From assembly GCF_001974875.1 (NCBI RefSeq), contig NZ_MTQD01000001.1, positions 248,001 through 312,000 on the forward strand: a stretch of 64,000 nt of DNA, given 5' to 3'. The first letter of the stretch is position 1, and each line of letters starts with the position of its first letter. Below the pieces are notes generated by a model. It made no database searches. It had not been told where the DNA came from and saw only the letters and a list, made by a program, of their open reading frames with translations. The DNA is from Pseudoalteromonas sp. EB27. Lineage in GTDB: Bacteria; Pseudomonadota; Gammaproteobacteria; Enterobacterales; Alteromonadaceae. Position numbers and translations under genes: made by a program. Below are positions 36,541-42,594 of the stretch, piece by piece.

Positions 36541-37890
36541 TTAACCTAAATTATCAACATCAATATTATGCTTTTTAATCAACTTATAAAAATCTGAGCG
36601 GTTACGTTTAGCAAGCTTAGCGCCTTCGGCTACGTTACCACCTGCCATTTTTAAAGTGTTAATTACATAGTCGCGCTCAAACTCTTTTTTAGCGTCGTTT
36701 AGTGATAATGGTTCTACATTTGTTTCGTTACTATTTAGCGCTGCTAACACTAAGTGCTCTGAAATAACATCGCTTGGCGTTAATGCTACAACCTGCTCTA
36801 CTACGTTTTGTAGTTGGCGGATATTACCTGGCCAGTCGTAACGCACAAGCGCATGCATCGCATCGCTTGCAAAGTGTTTTTCAGTTTGCTTCATGCGCTT
36901 AGCAATGCTTGCACTAAAATGCTGTGCTAATAAGCTTATATCTTCGCGGCGCTCACACAGTGGCGGTAATTTTAAATTAACTACGTTTAAGCGATAGTAT
37001 AAATCTTCTCTAAATTGCTGGCTTAAAATAGCTTCAGGAAGATTTTTATGTGTTGCCGATACAATACGTACATCAATTGCTATTTCTTCTTGAAAACCCA
37101 CCGGGCGAATTGTTTTTTCTTGTAATACGCGCAGTAACTTAACCTGCAAGTTAAGCGGCATATCGCCTATTTCGTCTAAAAATAACGTGCCGCCCTCAGC
37201 TTGTTGAAACAACCCTTGGTGATCTTTAATTGCGCCTGTAAAAGAGCCTTTTTTATGACCAAATAATTCGGACTCTAAAAGCTCCCCTGGTACAGCGCCG
37301 CAGTTAATTGCAACAAAAGGTCCGTTACTTACATGGCTATGTTGATGAATCGCCTGTGCGAGTAGCTCTTTACCTGTACCACTAGCCCCCGAAATCAATA
37401 CATTAACTTGTGTTGGCCCAAGTAGTTTTACTTGCTCAAGCAAGTGAAGCATTGTGCCGCTACGCGTAACTATATTACTTTTTGGGGCTGCTTCATCAGC
37501 GTTAACACCGTGAATTTCTATCGCTTTAGCAAGGCTGTCAAATAGCTCATCTTTATCTACAGGTTTAGTTATAAATGCAAAAATGCCCTGCTTAGTTGCC
37601 TCTACTGCATCAGGAATTGAACCGTGCGCTGTCATCATAATGACAGGTAATGCAGGGTAGCGGCTTTGCAACTGACGATGCAGCGCCATGCCATCCATTT
37701 CATCCATACGCAAGTCGGTTATTACGGCGTCAAACACTTGGCTTTTAAGTATTTGTAGTGCGGTTAAGCCGCTTTCACAGGTCGTTACTTCGTACCCTTT
37801 TGATTCGATACGAATAGCGAGCAGTTTTAATAAGCTAGCGTCGTCGTCAACGAGTAATACTTTTGCACCTTGCACTTTAGTTGCTGCCAT
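36541..37890 (-). CDS. glrR: Sigma-54-dependent response regulator GlrR
   Basis: Enhancer-binding activator (QseF/YfhA) phosphorylated by GlrK. Receiver about 1-125 with Asp59 ([12 protein letters not shown]), AAA+ ATPase about 145-380 with SGASGTGKE and [12 protein letters not shown], and a C-terminal Fis-type HTH ([20 protein letters not shown]). The sigma-54-contact loop reads GSFTGA rather than the usual GAFTGA. The identification rests on the glrK-qseG-glrR gene order known from enterobacteria. A perfect match to its published enhancer consensus lies upstream of the operon at 40010. Confidence 0.9.
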
Positions 37891-37892
37891 AG

Positions 37893-38438
37893 TTACTGCT
37901 CCTTAGTTTCTTCTCGTAGTAAAAGCTGCTGCTCAATTGTTGCTAAAGATGAGAGGGTTTCTTGCATTTTATTGTTAAGTGCTTGTTGCTCTTTTTTAGC
38001 ATTTATTTGCATAGTCACTTGTTGCTTTTGAAGCCATAAATATTGCTTTATATCATCTGGCCAAAAGTAAGCAAGATCGAGTTTTAGCAACTTAGTCATT
38101 ACTGTATTTGGATCATCATTTATGTTTAAGCACATAAATTTAAAAAAGCGTTTAAGATCGTTTTCGCCTGTAAAAATATCTTTTTTTGGCACCAATTTAA
38201 ATCCGCCACACTGATTAGCGTGCCATGCAATAACTTGCTCTGCTGGAGGGTAGCTAGGTTCTATTTTTGGTCTGGGTTTTGGGCTTGGTTTGCTGTTTTT
38301 GTCGTTTTTTATTTTAGTATCGACCACAGGTGCTGGTGTAATTGACACACGCTCTTCTTGCCCATTATTAATTTCACAACCAGATATAACCATGCTGCTA
38401 CTGAGCACACATAAAATAGCGATTAAACGCAAGCGCAT
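37893..38438 (-). CDS. qseG: QseG-like lipoprotein
   Basis: Lipoprotein encoded between sensor and regulator, as qseG (yfhG) is in E. coli, where it is an outer-membrane lipoprotein that modulates GlrK/QseE. Signal peptide with lipobox ISGC (about residue 21), a Pro/Lys-rich linker (about 45-65), then a globular part with two Cys (NQCGG and FMCLN) and a C-terminal coiled coil (about 140-178). Sequence similarity to QseG cannot be verified by eye; the call is mainly positional. It starts 1 base after the glrK stop and ends 2 bases before the glrR start. Confidence 0.75.
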   Translation of the reverse strand: MRLRLIAILCVLSSSMVISGCEINNGQEERVSITPAPVVDTKIKNDKNSKPSPKPRPKIEPSYPPAEQVIAWHANQCGGFKLVPKKDIFTGENDLKRFFKFMCLNINDDPNTVMTKLLKLDLAYFWPDDIKQYLWLQKQQVTMQINAKKEQQALNNKMQETLSSLATIEQQLLLREETKEQ

Positions 38439-38439
38439 G

Positions 38440-39897
38440 TTAATTAACTCCTAGATTTTTTGTTATGGGAATTTTAATTGAAAACCGGCAACCATGTGGC
38501 TCATTATGTTCAACAGTAAGTGTACCTCTTAGCTGTTCAACAGACTCTTTTACAATAGTTAAGCCCAGCCCACTGCCTTGCAGCGTAACATTTTTACTGT
38601 GTTTACCTTGATAAAATGCGCTGAAAATTTGAGTTTTTTCTTGCTCTTTAATACCGCACCCTCTATCGAGCACAGCGATACAAAGTTGATTTTGCTCAAG
38701 CGCTAAATTAATAGTAACGCTTTGCTTATCTTCTGAAAATTTTAAGCCATTTGAGATAAGCTGAATTAAAATCATCTCAATAAGCTCACTAGGTAAAGCA
38801 AGCGGTTTATTTGGTAAGTCATTTTTCCATTGCAGAGCCTGCTCACGCGCACTTAAGCGATGCTCAAAATGGCTATTTATTTTATTAATAAGGAGGCTAA
38901 ATTCAACTTCGCTTAGACTGTCTTTACTGGTACGAATCGCATTATAACTCAATAAACTGTCAATCATTGTGCGAAGGCGCACCATAGATTGGCTAATAAG
39001 CTCAAGTACCGCTTTTTGCTCACCTGTAATTGGGCCTACTATTTCATCAGTTAGTAAGTCAGTACCTTCGACCATTGAAGCTAACGGCGTTTTTAGCTCA
39101 TGGGTAACATGGCGTAAAAAAGTATCTTTTTGCTGCTCAAGCATATGTAGTTGCTCTTGCACCCACTGAAGCTTCTCTCCTAGCTCAACTAGCTCAGCTG
39201 ACCCCTTAACAGATATTTTTTGCTGCCAATGTCCCTGTCCTAGCTTATCAATAACCGTGGTTAACCCTTTTAGTCGCCCACTTATGCGCCATAAAAAACC
39301 ACCACCTACAATTAAAGTAAGTGGAATAAGTGCCACCAGCCAGTTTATAAATGAGGCTTGCAAGCTTGTCAGCTCATTTTGGTTATTGGTAATTTGCGCT
39401 TCGTTTTTATCACGTAACCATAAAGTAAGTTCAGCGACTAAATCGCTCACTGGGACAAACAACTCAGCTTGTTGTTGTTTTTGCTCAACCAATTCAACAT
39501 GCGCGGTTTGTAAGGTGGTATATAAGCGTTGCCATTGGTGGGTATAATCTTTATTCATGTTTACAAATTTAAGCTCATCAATGCTTTGCAGGGATGATTG
39601 CCATTTATCAACGATGAGTTTGTCGAGCGATTCACTTTTTAATACCCAGTTTTGCCTAGTGGCCCGCTCAAGACTGTTGAGTTCTTGTTTTAGAGTATTA
39701 AACGATTTAGTAACTTGGTAATTGTTACTCACAATACTTTGAGTGATAGCTAATTGCTTGTTAAGCGCATTTAAAAATACAATCACCACTATAGAAAGCG
39801 GGAGCAACGAAAGCAGCATACTCATTGCAAATTGCCCGATTAAATTAGGCCGCCAGTTAAGCATTGCTTGGTATTTTTTAGCTATGGTTGCTGGCAT
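38440..39897 (-). CDS. glrK: Sensor histidine kinase GlrK
   Basis: Inner-membrane kinase (QseE/YfhK type) for GlrR. Membrane segments about 27-44 and 184-204 flank a mostly helical periplasmic region of about 140 residues. HAMP and a coiled coil (about 205-260) lead to an H-box HVTHELKTPLASM with His266. The ATPase domain has the N box LISNGLKFSED, DRGCGI and GSGLGLTIV. First gene of a four-gene operon (glrK-qseG-glrR-DUF1543). The 39898-40227 gap upstream contains a GlrR-type enhancer and a sigma-54-like promoter pointing the opposite way, towards the EF-hand genes. Confidence 0.9.
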   Translation of the reverse strand: MPATIAKKYQAMLNWRPNLIGQFAMSMLLSLLPLSIVVIVFLNALNKQLAITQSIVSNNYQVTKSFNTLKQELNSLERATRQNWVLKSESLDKLIVDKWQSSLQSIDELKFVNMNKDYTHQWQRLYTTLQTAHVELVEQKQQQAELFVPVSDLVAELTLWLRDKNEAQITNNQNELTSLQASFINWLVALIPLTLIVGGGFLWRISGRLKGLTTVIDKLGQGHWQQKISVKGSAELVELGEKLQWVQEQLHMLEQQKDTFLRHVTHELKTPLASMVEGTDLLTDEIVGPITGEQKAVLELISQSMVRLRTMIDSLLSYNAIRTSKDSLSEVEFSLLINKINSHFEHRLSAREQALQWKNDLPNKPLALPSELIEMILIQLISNGLKFSEDKQSVTINLALEQNQLCIAVLDRGCGIKEQEKTQIFSAFYQGKHSKNVTLQGSGLGLTIVKESVEQLRGTLTVEHNEPHGCRFSIKIPITKNLGVN

Positions 39898-40009
39898 TTC
39901 GTTTAGTCCTTTTAAATTAAGCGTTCTATTATTAAGTGCTTACCTTATACACTAGCTGAACCAGCAATTATATTTAATACGATTAACAGCCAGTGCTACA
40001 AAAACAATG

Positions 40010-40027
40010 TGTCGCCAAATAGAGACA
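40010..40027 (+). promoter_or_regulatory. GlrR enhancer site (TGTC-N10-GACA)
   Basis: TGTCGCCAAATAGAGACA is an exact match to the TGTC-N10-GACA consensus described for GlrR upstream of enterobacterial glmY. It lies in the glrK/EF-hand intergenic region, about 190 bases before the predicted EF-hand transcript start, a normal enhancer distance for sigma-54 activators. Confidence 0.65.
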
Positions 40028-40174
40028 GCGTAAGCCATTGATTTTAAAAACATCTCTTTAATCTCGCTACATAGTGTTGCAAAAGACATACAAAAATTAC
40101 AATAAACCCCGTAAAAAATTCTCACTCTCCTCAAGTTAAAACGCTAAGCATTTGAAAATTAATAATAATTATTA

Positions 40175-40191
40175 TTGGCATCATTTTTGTA
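40175..40191 (+). promoter_or_regulatory. Candidate sigma-54 promoter for the EF-hand genes
   Basis: TTGGCATCATTTTTGTA fits the -24 GG / -12 GC layout with the required 12-base step (GG at 40177-40178, GT at 40189-40190). One deviation is C to T at -12. Predicted transcription starts near 40201, leaving a leader of about 26 bases that includes the AAGGA site of the first EF-hand gene. Confidence 0.5.
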
Positions 40192-40227
40192 ATGCTGTTA
40201 CTAACTTTAATCAATAAGGAAATAATT

Positions 40228-40461
40228 ATGAACAAACGCATTTTAGTAGTTTCATCATTACTAGCTTTAGGCTTTTTAGGCGCTAACGCACACGCAATGG
40301 ACGTTCACGCGACTTTTAACGAGCTTGATAAAGACAGTAACGGTACATTAAGTGAAGCCGAAGCAGGTGAAGATGCCGTTTTACATGAGAATTTTTCTCA
40401 AATTGATACCAATCAAGATGGGCAATTGTCGCTAGATGAATTCAAAAAATTTATTCAATAA
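40228..40461 (+). CDS. Secreted EF-hand mini-protein 1
   Basis: Small exported calcium-binding protein of 77 residues. The signal peptide (about 1-23) ends AHA-MD. Two canonical 12-residue EF-hand loops follow: DKDSNGTLSEAE and DTNQDGQLSLDE, with Asp at 1, acidic or Asn at 3 and 5, Gly at 6 and Glu at 12. AAGGA lies 7 bases before the ATG at 40228, so the longer frame from 40192 is not used. First of four tandem paralogues; a sigma-54-like promoter and GlrR-type enhancer are upstream. The partner protein is unknown; a periplasmic calcium sensor or buffer is plausible. Confidence 0.88.
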   Translation: MNKRILVVSSLLALGFLGANAHAMDVHATFNELDKDSNGTLSEAEAGEDAVLHENFSQIDTNQDGQLSLDEFKKFIQ

Positions 40462-40485: not shown

Positions 40486-40713
40486 ATGAAACAACTTATA
40501 GCCGCTTTTTCATTAATGTTTTTAGCAATTAGTGCCACTGTAATTGCATCCCCAACAAACGTGCGCTTTGCTCATTTAGATAAAGATATGGATGGACAAA
40601 TATCAATTGTAGAAGCAAAGGAAGACAAGGAAGTAATGAGACAATTTGCCGACTTAGATGAAGACGGTGATGAAAAAGTCTCAAAAAAAGAATTTGAAAG
40701 CTTTAAACCTTAA
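40486..40713 (+). CDS. Secreted EF-hand mini-protein 2
   Basis: Paralogue of the preceding gene, 75 residues from the ATG at 40486 (AAGGA 8 bases upstream). Signal peptide about 1-23 ending VIA-SP. The first loop DKDMDGQISIVE is canonical; the second, DEDGDEKVSKKE, keeps the ligands but has Glu instead of Gly at position 6 and may bind calcium less well. It is 24 bases after gene 1, so the two form one transcript. Its stop codon lies inside a 32-base palindrome that should terminate transcription. Confidence 0.85.
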   Translation: MKQLIAAFSLMFLAISATVIASPTNVRFAHLDKDMDGQISIVEAKEDKEVMRQFADLDEDGDEKVSKKEFESFKP

Positions 40714-40736
40714 TCAGTAATTACTGATTAAGGTTT
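40705..40736 (+). terminator. 32-base perfect palindrome ending the EF-hand 1-2 unit
   Basis: AAACCTTAATCAGTAA followed by its exact reverse complement ending in TTT. It includes the EF-hand 2 stop codon. It is probably a terminator splitting the EF-hand cluster into two units, though it is AT-rich for one. Confidence 0.6.
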
Positions 40737-40899: not shown

Positions 40900-41136
40900 A
40901 TGAAGATACTTCCCCTTGTTATAAGCATTTTAATGCTATTAAGTTTTGATGCCGCGGCACTTGATGTAAAGCAACGCTTTGATCACCTAGATAGCGACAA
41001 AAGTGGCTATTTAACACACGACGAACTTGATCCCCAGCCACAACTTTTAAACACCTTTGTAAAATGGGACAAAAACCAAGATAACCAAATTTCGCTAGTC
41101 GAATTTAAAAGTTATCTAACTAACAACCTTTACTAA
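40900..41136 (+). CDS. Secreted EF-hand mini-protein 3
   Basis: Third paralogue, 78 residues, with GGAAGGA 7 bases before the ATG. Signal peptide about 1-21 ending AAA-LD. Loops: DSDKSGYLTHDE (canonical) and DKNQDNQISLVE (Asn at position 6). The 186-base gap before it, after the palindrome, probably holds its own promoter; I see no sigma-54 match there. Directly coupled to EF-hand 4. Confidence 0.85.
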   Translation: MKILPLVISILMLLSFDAAALDVKQRFDHLDSDKSGYLTHDELDPQPQLLNTFVKWDKNQDNQISLVEFKSYLTNNLY

Positions 41137-41145
41137 GTGATTTGT

Positions 41146-41382
41146 ATGAAAAGTATTAGCTATATAACGCTGCTGGCGTTTAGTATTTTTAGCACATTTA
41201 GTTTTGCCGCAAGTAACGATATTGCAAAGCAATTTAAAAAGCTAGATAAGAACAAAGATGGTTTCTTATCACGTTCAGAAACCGCTTTAGATCCGGCTTT
41301 GTGGTCACGGTTCTCAAGCTACGATAGTGATAAAGATGGCAAGTTAGCACTAAATGAATATGGCTTATATGCAAGTAAGTAG
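41146..41382 (+). CDS. Secreted EF-hand mini-protein 4
   Basis: Fourth paralogue. Signal peptide about 1-22 ending SFA-AS, then loops DKNKDGFLSRSE and DSDKDGKLALNE, both canonical. The frame continues back to a GTG at 41137 directly after the previous stop, but MKSISYITLL at 41146 is the natural signal-peptide start, giving 78 residues. It has no strong ribosome-binding site, suggesting translation coupled to gene 3. A hairpin follows the stop. Confidence 0.83.
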   Translation: MKSISYITLLAFSIFSTFSFAASNDIAKQFKKLDKNKDGFLSRSETALDPALWSRFSSYDSDKDGKLALNEYGLYASK

Positions 41383-41388
41383 TTTTAT

Positions 41389-41412
41389 AGCTAGGTAAAC
41401 AAGCACCTAGCT
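41389..41412 (+). terminator. Hairpin after EF-hand 4
   Basis: AGCTAGGT-AAACAAGC-ACCTAGCT stem-loop 7 bases after the stop codon, followed by an AT-rich stretch without a clean T run. Likely terminator. Confidence 0.55.
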
Positions 41413-41439: not shown

Positions 41440-41892
41440 TCAGGCTTTATTTTTAGAGCAATGCGCCAAATACTCTGCATCAGTAGGTTTTGGGCTCACC
41501 ATAAAATCCATTTTGAGATAAGTTAGAATAGGTTGCTTACTCGTATTTTCAGTTGTCGCTTTCCAGCGCCATAAACCCACAGCAGCAGCTGCATTATTAT
41601 CAAACACACCCTCAGGGTAGGATGCAATAACCTTATACCCTTGGGCTTCACCTTGTGAATTAATTAACATAGCAAGCTCAACACAACCTGAAATACTTTT
41701 CTTAGCAGCTTCTATCGGATATCGCGGCTCTACTCTTTTAGCAACATCCCAGTATTCACCTGCCTTACTTCGCAGTTCAGGACTCGATAAATCAATAAAA
41801 CTCGGCATTTCATCGTTTACTTGTTGATCAGACGTTGAGCCACAGGCTGTTAGCATCATGCTCAACGGGAGTAATAAATAGAGAGCTTTCAC
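41440..41892 (-). CDS. TonB-C-like lipoprotein A
   Basis: Lipoprotein of 150 residues with a TonB C-terminal-type domain. Lipobox LTAC (Cys near 17). The body carries EPRYPIEAAKKSISGCVELAML, matching the P-x-Y-P-x-x-A-x-x-x-x-x-x-G-x-V pattern of TonB C-terminal domains, then GYKVIASYPEGVFDNNAAAAV and a W-x-W motif. Unlike TonB it lacks the N-terminal membrane helix and Pro-rich spacer, so it is not an energy transducer. The start is probably a GTG at 41892 preceded by AAGGA. It is a close paralogue of the next gene upstream (42073-42594). Confidence 0.8.
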   Translation of the reverse strand: MKALYLLLPLSMMLTACGSTSDQQVNDEMPSFIDLSSPELRSKAGEYWDVAKRVEPRYPIEAAKKSISGCVELAMLINSQGEAQGYKVIASYPEGVFDNNAAAAVGLWRWKATTENTSKQPILTYLKMDFMVSPKPTDAEYLAHCSKNKA

Positions 41893-42072: not shown

Positions 42073-42594
42073 TCAGTAGGAGGTTTTTTTAATTTTACCT
42101 GTTACTTGAAATGTTTCGCCAGCCGGACAATTTTTTAAATATTTTTTACCTACTGGTATTGAATCAATCATGAAATCAATTCTGATATGAGTAAGTACAG
42201 GTTGTTTAGCTACATTTACGTTAGTAGGTAGCCAGGCCCATGTATTTAAAGATTGCGCTGCGGCTTCATCAAATAACCCCTTAGGGTATGAAGAAGTTAC
42301 TTTATATCCTTGCGCCTTACCCTCAGAATTAATAATAGTCATGAGTTCTACACAACCAGCAAGACCTTTTTTTGCAGCAGCTATTGGATATCGTGGTTCT
42401 GTTCTTGTGGAAATATTCCAATAGTCTTTCACCCTGTCGCGCAGCTCAACACTTGATAAATCTATATAATCGCGTATTTCAGCATTTGATACATCAGTAT
42501 GGTTTAGCTTTTCTACACTTTTATCTGCAGTAGGTGTCGATCCACATGCCGCAAGTAATGAAGTTAATGGGAGTAATAAATAGAGGGCTTTCAT
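42073..42594 (-). CDS. TonB-C-like lipoprotein B
   Basis: Paralogue of lipoprotein A, sharing the signal MKALYLLLPL, the lipobox Cys (LAAC), IDLSSxELR and the TonB-C signature EPRYPIAAAKKGLAGCVELM, then YKVTSSYPKGLFDEAAAQ. It is 173 residues as read. The C-terminus ETFQVTGKIKKTSY ends at a double stop next to an A7 run, and a longer tail lies in the adjacent frame (separate entry). The original product may therefore be longer. AAGGA precedes the ATG. Both lipoproteins are on one strand and likely co-transcribed; the pair looks like a tandem duplication. Role unknown. Confidence 0.78.
   Translation of the reverse strand: MKALYLLLPLTSLLAACGSTPTADKSVEKLNHTDVSNAEIRDYIDLSSVELRDRVKDYWNISTRTEPRYPIAAAKKGLAGCVELMTIINSEGKAQGYKVTSSYPKGLFDEAAAQSLNTWAWLPTNVNVAKQPVLTHIRIDFMIDSIPVGKKYLKNCPAGETFQVTGKIKKTSY

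Follow-up and report, generated by a model that had tools for sequence, protein, structure and literature searches.

The small RNA gene glmY is an established target of the response regulator GlrR, also named QseF. Lanmodulin, for its part, carries four EF-hand loops, and of how small EF-hand proteins are controlled in bacteria little is known, to our knowledge. In E. coli, QseF is reported to bind, with the help of IHF, three TGTN12ACA sites at glmY and to fire its sigma-54 promoter (PMC6075780). A survey of quorum sensing in Pseudoalteromonas mentions QseF once, as a COG2204 match to LuxO (PMC6275029), and EF-hand proteins of Pseudomonas have been considered in a biofilm (PMC11962581). Within the open-access (PMC) literature, as partly covered here, we found no earlier description of a link between GlrR/QseF and an EF-hand gene, nor a paper combining GlrR with sigma-54 and EF-hand, EF-hand with sigma54 and Pseudoalteromonas, or QseF with EF-hand.

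Here we present a locus of Pseudoalteromonas at which, in our opinion very probably, GlrR, IHF and sigma-54 drive clusters of EF-hand genes, the GlmY RNA not being the output. Its promoter resembles that of Enterobacteriaceae glmY in combining palindromic candidate GlrR sites, IHF-like sites and a sigma-54 element, and also in adjoining a kinase-lipoprotein-regulator operon (PMC6075780, PMC8745638). It differs from glmY in that a series of secreted EF-hand proteins, instead of an sRNA, is the predicted output, in that two sites lie at fixed distances where glmY has three (PMC6075780), and in that many Pseudoalteromonas genomes contain the module more than once. A further parallel is offered by rpoE of E. 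coli, likewise a protein-coding, QseF-activated target tied to the envelope (PMC6075780), but this is another gene and it encodes no EF-hand protein.

The glrK Locus and Its Divergent EF-Hand Genes

The material of this study was a stretch of 64,000 nucleotides of Pseudoalteromonas sp. EB27 (GCF_001974875.1, NZ_MTQD01000001.1, positions 248,001-312,000 of the forward strand), hereafter called the window. Its minus strand presents the operon order kinase - lipoprotein - regulator of the GlrKXR arrangement, namely a glrK-like sensor kinase gene (38440..39897, 485 aa), a lipoprotein-like gene in the glrX/qseG position (37893..38438, 181 aa) and a glrR-like gene for a sigma-54 response regulator (36541..37890, 449 aa), whereas four small EF-hand genes lie on the plus strand. 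The regulator contains Response_reg and Sigma54_activat domains above the cut-off, the latter with a Pfam E value of 1.9e-70, and its top match among the 25 NCBIfam families shown is GlrR (PRK15115), with 605 bits under a cut-off of 763. The kinase has HATPase_c and HisKA above the Pfam cut-off and HAMP just below; the top one of the 25 NCBIfam families shown for it is CreC (130 bits vs a cut-off of 356), and none of them is a GlrK model. The product of the lipoprotein-like gene has no match in Pfam or NCBIfam; it shows a lipobox-like motif, VISGC by eye, and occupies the same position as QseG. A glrR-like gene is found near glrK, on the same strand, in all 87 loci of the genus considered below, the gene between them having been examined in the window only. 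The genome also possesses rpoN.

The EF-hand genes encode proteins of 77 (40228..40461), 75 (40486..40713), 78 (40900..41136) and again 78 residues (41146..41382). Protein 1, with two canonical loops, passes the Pfam cut-offs of EF-hand_5, EF-hand_1, EF-hand_6 and EF-hand_7, protein 2 those of EF-hand_1 and EF-hand_6, and proteins 3 and 4 those of EF-hand families as well. All four have an N-terminus that by eye looks like a signal peptide, followed by two EF-hand loops about 14 residues apart; the central glycine is retained in six of the eight loops (also by eye), proteins 2 and 3 lacking it in their second loop. The AlphaFold model of protein 1 shows the two loops paired, with a pLDDT of about 96 for residues 31-70 and a pTM of 0.61, and structure comparison returns generic calmodulin-like EF-hand matches, none at E 0.001 or better. 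From their loops, the proteins would bind calcium; they are presumably periplasmic, with a putative role in envelope or divalent-cation homeostasis. They resemble lanmodulin and further small EF-hand proteins of bacteria in being apparently secreted and in their closely spaced EF-hand pairs, but differ from lanmodulin in having two loops per protein and not four. An identity with lanmodulin was rejected, with the NCBIfam LanM model giving 23.8-32.8 bits for three of the four proteins against a cut-off of 135. All four match XopAW weakly too (24-32.8 bits, cut-off 120), and such LanM and XopAW scores are what any EF-hand might give.

The four genes may form a single transcript. A terminator-like stem-loop follows gene 4 on the plus strand (41389..41412), one of two terminator-like sites found between 39800 and 41500 vs 1.0 expected, the other lying inside gene 4. 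Gene 2 overlaps at its end with a hairpin on the same strand (40708..40733; folding energy of the segment 40708-40790, -21.7 kcal/mol with z -3.6), a possible attenuator or partial terminator.

Beside the EF-hand cluster, the minus strand carries a tandem pair of related lipoprotein-like genes (41440-41892 and 42073-42594).

Architecture of the Divergent Promoter

EF-hand gene 1 starts with the ATG at 40228, preceded by AAGGA at 40216-40220. The first-pass annotation of this DNA had proposed a perfect TGTC-N10-GACA palindrome and a sigma-54 element upstream of this gene, and both are indeed present, the former at 40010..40027 (TGTCGCCAAATAGAGACA, the distal GlrR enhancer-like palindrome or UAS1) and the latter at 40175..40191 on the plus strand (TTGGCATCATTTTTGTA, with GG at -24 and GT at -12). 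The annotation had overlooked the other palindrome of this promoter and both of its IHF-like sites. The proximal, degenerate enhancer-like palindrome or UAS2 (TGTTGCAAAAGACATACA, 40075..40092) matches the consensus in 9/12 positions. The IHF-like sites, both on the plus strand, are TAAGCCATTGATT at 40031..40043, which matches in 9/9 positions the sequence YAANNNNTTGATW that we took as the IHF consensus for scoring, and TAAGCATTTGAAA at 40145..40157, which matches in 8/9. The palindrome is real, and TGTYGC-N6-GCRACA describes it better than TGTC-N10-GACA, which it has superseded as the search motif.

On the basis of these parts, we propose that GlrK, with the lipoprotein beside it, would activate GlrR, and that phosphorylated GlrR would bind the two TGTYGC-N6-GCRACA enhancers. 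With IHF bending the promoter DNA, GlrR would then drive sigma-54 RNA polymerase at 40175-40191, leading to transcription of the divergent EF-hand cluster. Binding by GlrR, as well as dependence on sigma-54 and on IHF, are predictions drawn from the sites.

The minus strand contains an additional conserved block at 39944..39963 (CTTATACACTAGCTGAACCA), in which most columns are at least 70-90% conserved in the alignment of 22 clade-A representatives; it is likely to be part of the glrK promoter. We considered another sigma-54 promoter ahead of EF-hand gene 3 and rejected it, the matches being weak and the best scoring 15 points. We also dropped the absence of C at -12 as a specific mark of these promoters: C occurs there in none of the 84 cis promoters and none of the 88 composites described below, yet another promoter of the same genome, which looks to us like that of pspA, has TTGGA as well.

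Taken singly, either site is no better than chance. With up to one mismatch, TGTC-N10-GACA is found 6 times in the window vs 12.2 expected, 40010-40027 being the sole perfect instance, and perfect copies number 17 in the whole genome vs 31 for the reversed pattern; the sigma-54 consensus with up to two mismatches occurs 48 times in the window vs 42 expected. When 15 of the 17 genomic sites were examined as loci, a good sigma-54-like element (score of at least 17, within 320 bases) was found at two, the window's own and L005, where an EF-hand ORF is absent among the first ORFs after the element. It is from their conserved position across relatives that the sites derive their significance, not from counts of single motifs.

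Conservation of the Promoter in Pseudoalteromonas

GlrK was sought in 108 Pseudoalteromonas genomes, of which 87 have an ortholog (E 6.3e-51 or better); 51 of these orthologs show at least 46% identity and the others about 28-36%, while the next-best match listed is at about 1e-27. A sigma-54 element comparable to that of the window lies upstream in 84 of the 87 glrK loci. The remaining three (L042, L062 and L088) have neither an element scoring at least 17 nor an adjacent EF-hand cluster, and their removal defines the 84 cis promoters, which we scanned for palindromes from -260 to -20 of TTGG (17,666 positions in total). The distal palindrome TGTYGC-N6-GCRACA, at 10/12 or better, is found at -168..-150 (near -157, the offset of UAS1) in 78 of the 84 promoters, and the proximal one, at 9/12 or better, at -103..-78 (near -91) in 81. 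Both are present in 76 promoters. The first-pass annotation had made its proposal depend on the conservation of the sites in related genomes, and the proposal withstood this comparison: at least one palindrome is kept at the expected offset in 83 of the 84 glrK-adjacent promoters; the exception, L022, has its sole good palindrome at -401, perhaps displaced by an insertion. Matches to the IHF consensus number 146 over all bins of the 84 promoters, vs 22.7 on average after shuffling of the letters, and they cluster in the bins from -144 to -136 (58 matches) and in the bin at -32 (71 matches), positions to which 40031-40043 and 40145-40157 correspond in the window.

These data bear directly on the view that the sites are chance matches in AT-rich intergenic DNA, which would fit the chance frequency of each site on its own. 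We consider it extremely improbable in the face of palindromes confined to two fixed zones, with none of 10/12 or better elsewhere between -260 and -20 in the 84 promoters.

A perfect CTKAAY-N5-CTKAAY box, which we take to resemble PmrA/QseB-type boxes, is found at -67 from TTGG in 31 of the 35 promoters of the clade L067-L102 and in none of the 49 of the window's clade; it suggests a second regulator in the former.

A Wider Predicted EF-Hand Regulon

We then searched the 108 genomes of the genus for a composite pattern consisting of the palindrome, a gap (60-90 bases allowed) and the sigma-54 element. The composite is present in 85 genomes and the reversed control pattern in none. Its phyletic co-occurrence with glrK is nearly complete, as it is found in 85 of the 87 genomes with glrK and in 0/21 without (Fisher p 2e-20 with genomes treated as independent; the genomes are related and the counts are therefore inflated). 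The two genomes that possess glrK without the strict composite, G035 and G065, have a perfect distal and a 9/12 proximal palindrome at their glrK loci (L032 and L037). As for the family of EF-hand proteins (alignment A1, E 1e-4), it occurs in 87/87 genomes with glrK and in 4/21 without.

A total of 88 composites were read with their flanks, a set that leaves out some glrK-adjacent sites, the loci of which were examined within the cis-promoter set. EF-hand ORFs, assigned by loop pattern, follow 87 of the 88, many of them far from glrK, and the gap between palindrome and TTGG is 72-74 bases in 87 as well; the minus-strand site of L164 is the sole exception in both respects. Distant composites ahead of EF-hand ORFs are retained even in L042, L062 and L088. 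In the window's own genome, C11 carries the module described here, C35 (L103/L157) another and C14 a third, the last with a palindrome of 11/12 at -91.

The results of this analysis support a predicted regulon that exceeds the divergent cluster and includes distant EF-hand clusters. Because the same module precedes these further clusters, the GlrKR regulon would consist of secreted EF-hand pairs, with about 50 residues in the mature protein, instead of the GlmY RNA. Conservation, geometry and co-occurrence with glrK thus favor the earlier inference that GlrK/GlrR acts on small secreted EF-hand proteins; the divergent set stands as a target, but its role as the only one does not, since distant clusters share the module.

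The distant modules are equally relevant to the possibility that the palindromes serve mainly the autoregulation of glrK-glrR, with the EF-hand genes as passengers of another promoter. The sites do sit between divergent genes, and at L357 (g10), outside the genus, an EF-hand gene lies just before glrK, the two following each other on the same strand after a GlrR-type promoter, with a palindrome (11/12) and a sigma-54 element 91 bases apart. We regard this possibility as very unlikely, given that in Pseudoalteromonas the sigma-54 element faces the EF-hand genes at a fixed spacing and that distant clusters bear the same module.

Against the proposed control by GlrR stands an EF-hand protein of 173 residues, lipobox-like at its start, which the genome of EB27 encodes in C22 (L342, 1139-1719); upstream of its gene there are a sigma-54 element and an IHF-like site without mismatch, and no GlrR palindrome.

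GlrR-Type Promoters and Their Outputs across the Order

To relate the Pseudoalteromonas promoters to GlrR, we consider their likeness to glmY across the order. Of 394 genomes from the order, 17 matched the palindrome-promoter pattern, two of them being Pseudoalteromonas. All five matches in f18 (inferred to be Enterobacteriaceae) are glmY, and ten other matches include EF-hand ORFs at L155, L156 and L163. The gap between palindrome and promoter is 84-88 bases in the five glmY promoters, whichever glmY site matched, vs the 72-74 reported above. One match (L148) lies within a metabolic gene or immediately ahead of it, and in L149 and L150 (genus g12) the GlrR-type promoter is followed by a small membrane-protein ORF and then by a glrK-like gene.

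GlmY (Rfam RF00128) was found in 0/108 genomes of the genus by a search that was positive for the E. coli control and had stricter filters, which a very diverged RNA could escape; no GlmY-like RNA was found in the 64,000-nt window. Control of EF-hand proteins by GlrR and sigma-54, in replacement of glmY, is to be seen as a prediction, though a strongly supported one. The first-pass annotation had allowed an EF-hand output either in place of a glmY-like sRNA or in addition to it, and of these alternatives the first agrees with our results while the second fits less well.

Outside the genus we examined 40 glrK loci, drawn from 50 genomes with a best GlrR match of about 4e-103 or better; for 20 of them (L372-L391) the search for EF-hand ORFs covered about 1.7 kb upstream of glrK, except at L383, where it covered the whole stretch. 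EF-hand genes adjoin glrK in 12 loci and glmY does so in 10; the other 18 have neither, and the two never occur together. EF-hand neighbors are found in ten of the eleven f1 loci, one f11 and one f16 locus, and glmY neighbors in seven f18, two f10 and one f26 loci. The EF-hand call rests on the loop pattern only in L365, L366 and L384, whereas in each of the other nine loci one protein passes the Pfam cut-off. In a GlrK tree of 55 rows, glmY neighbors require two changes (possibly one) and EF-hand neighbors five, the latter lying to either side of the glmY clade, with an arbitrary root and a long-branch warning. An EF-hand output ancestral for GlrKR is consequently only a suggestion, because of this root and the long branches.

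The same comparisons help in judging whether another sigma-54 activator with a similar palindrome might drive the EF-hand genes, their adjacency to glrK being incidental. Among named records (80 loci of at least 119 stretches), the composite leads EF-hand ORFs in 29/30 Pseudoalteromonas sites vs 2/51 elsewhere, so that the pattern is specific only inside the Pseudoalteromonas lineage and 49/51 composites outside it lack an EF-hand ORF, as this alternative would have it. Genus g3 also fits it: in four genomes (L151-L154), similar palindromes with a sigma-54 element precede lipoprotein-like or glutathione transferase ORFs (the latter YghU-like, we presume) and not EF-hand genes, possibly representing another sigma-54 regulon. 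Moreover, the genome of the window carries further NtrC-type regulators (8 matches scored). We nevertheless deem another activator unlikely, as the composite tracks glrK (85/87 vs 0/21), the same motif marks glmY promoters and EF-hand genes adjoin glrK in 12/40 loci beyond the genus.

Control of the EF-hand genes by GlrR would combine a known regulator and promoter type with a new and apparently swappable output. It gives a testable role both to GlrK/GlrR (QseE/QseF) outside enteric bacteria and to small bacterial EF-hand proteins. A two-component system would retain both the DNA site and the layout of its promoter while the adjacent output is either protein or RNA, and this difference in output would help to date the origin of the GlmY pathway. 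A broader reading, which we offer tentatively and regard as somewhat doubtful, regards GlrKXR as in essence an envelope divalent-cation system, with a secreted EF-hand protein as the older adjacent output and GlmY as a later replacement in one enterobacterial clade. If true, the GlrR/IHF/sigma-54 promoter would be a conserved socket that has accepted different outputs, namely EF-hand genes, an sRNA, a small membrane protein and a further small protein. Under such a divalent-cation reading, the EF-hand proteins may serve as reporters or buffers of calcium, or of another metal, in the periplasm, and they may act back on the kinase or on the lipoprotein that accompanies it.

Two further kinds of ORF were observed near promoters of this type. 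An ORF for a small membrane-protein-like product of about 60 residues lies behind a GlrR-type promoter in L149, L150 and L356 (genera g12 and g4). In four f9 loci (L360, L380, L381 and L382), GlrR-like palindromes accompany a conserved protein of about 115 residues, encoded between glrK and a gene that we take to be asd-like; the L360 copy of this protein has no Pfam match, and the protein is a possible further output of GlrR.
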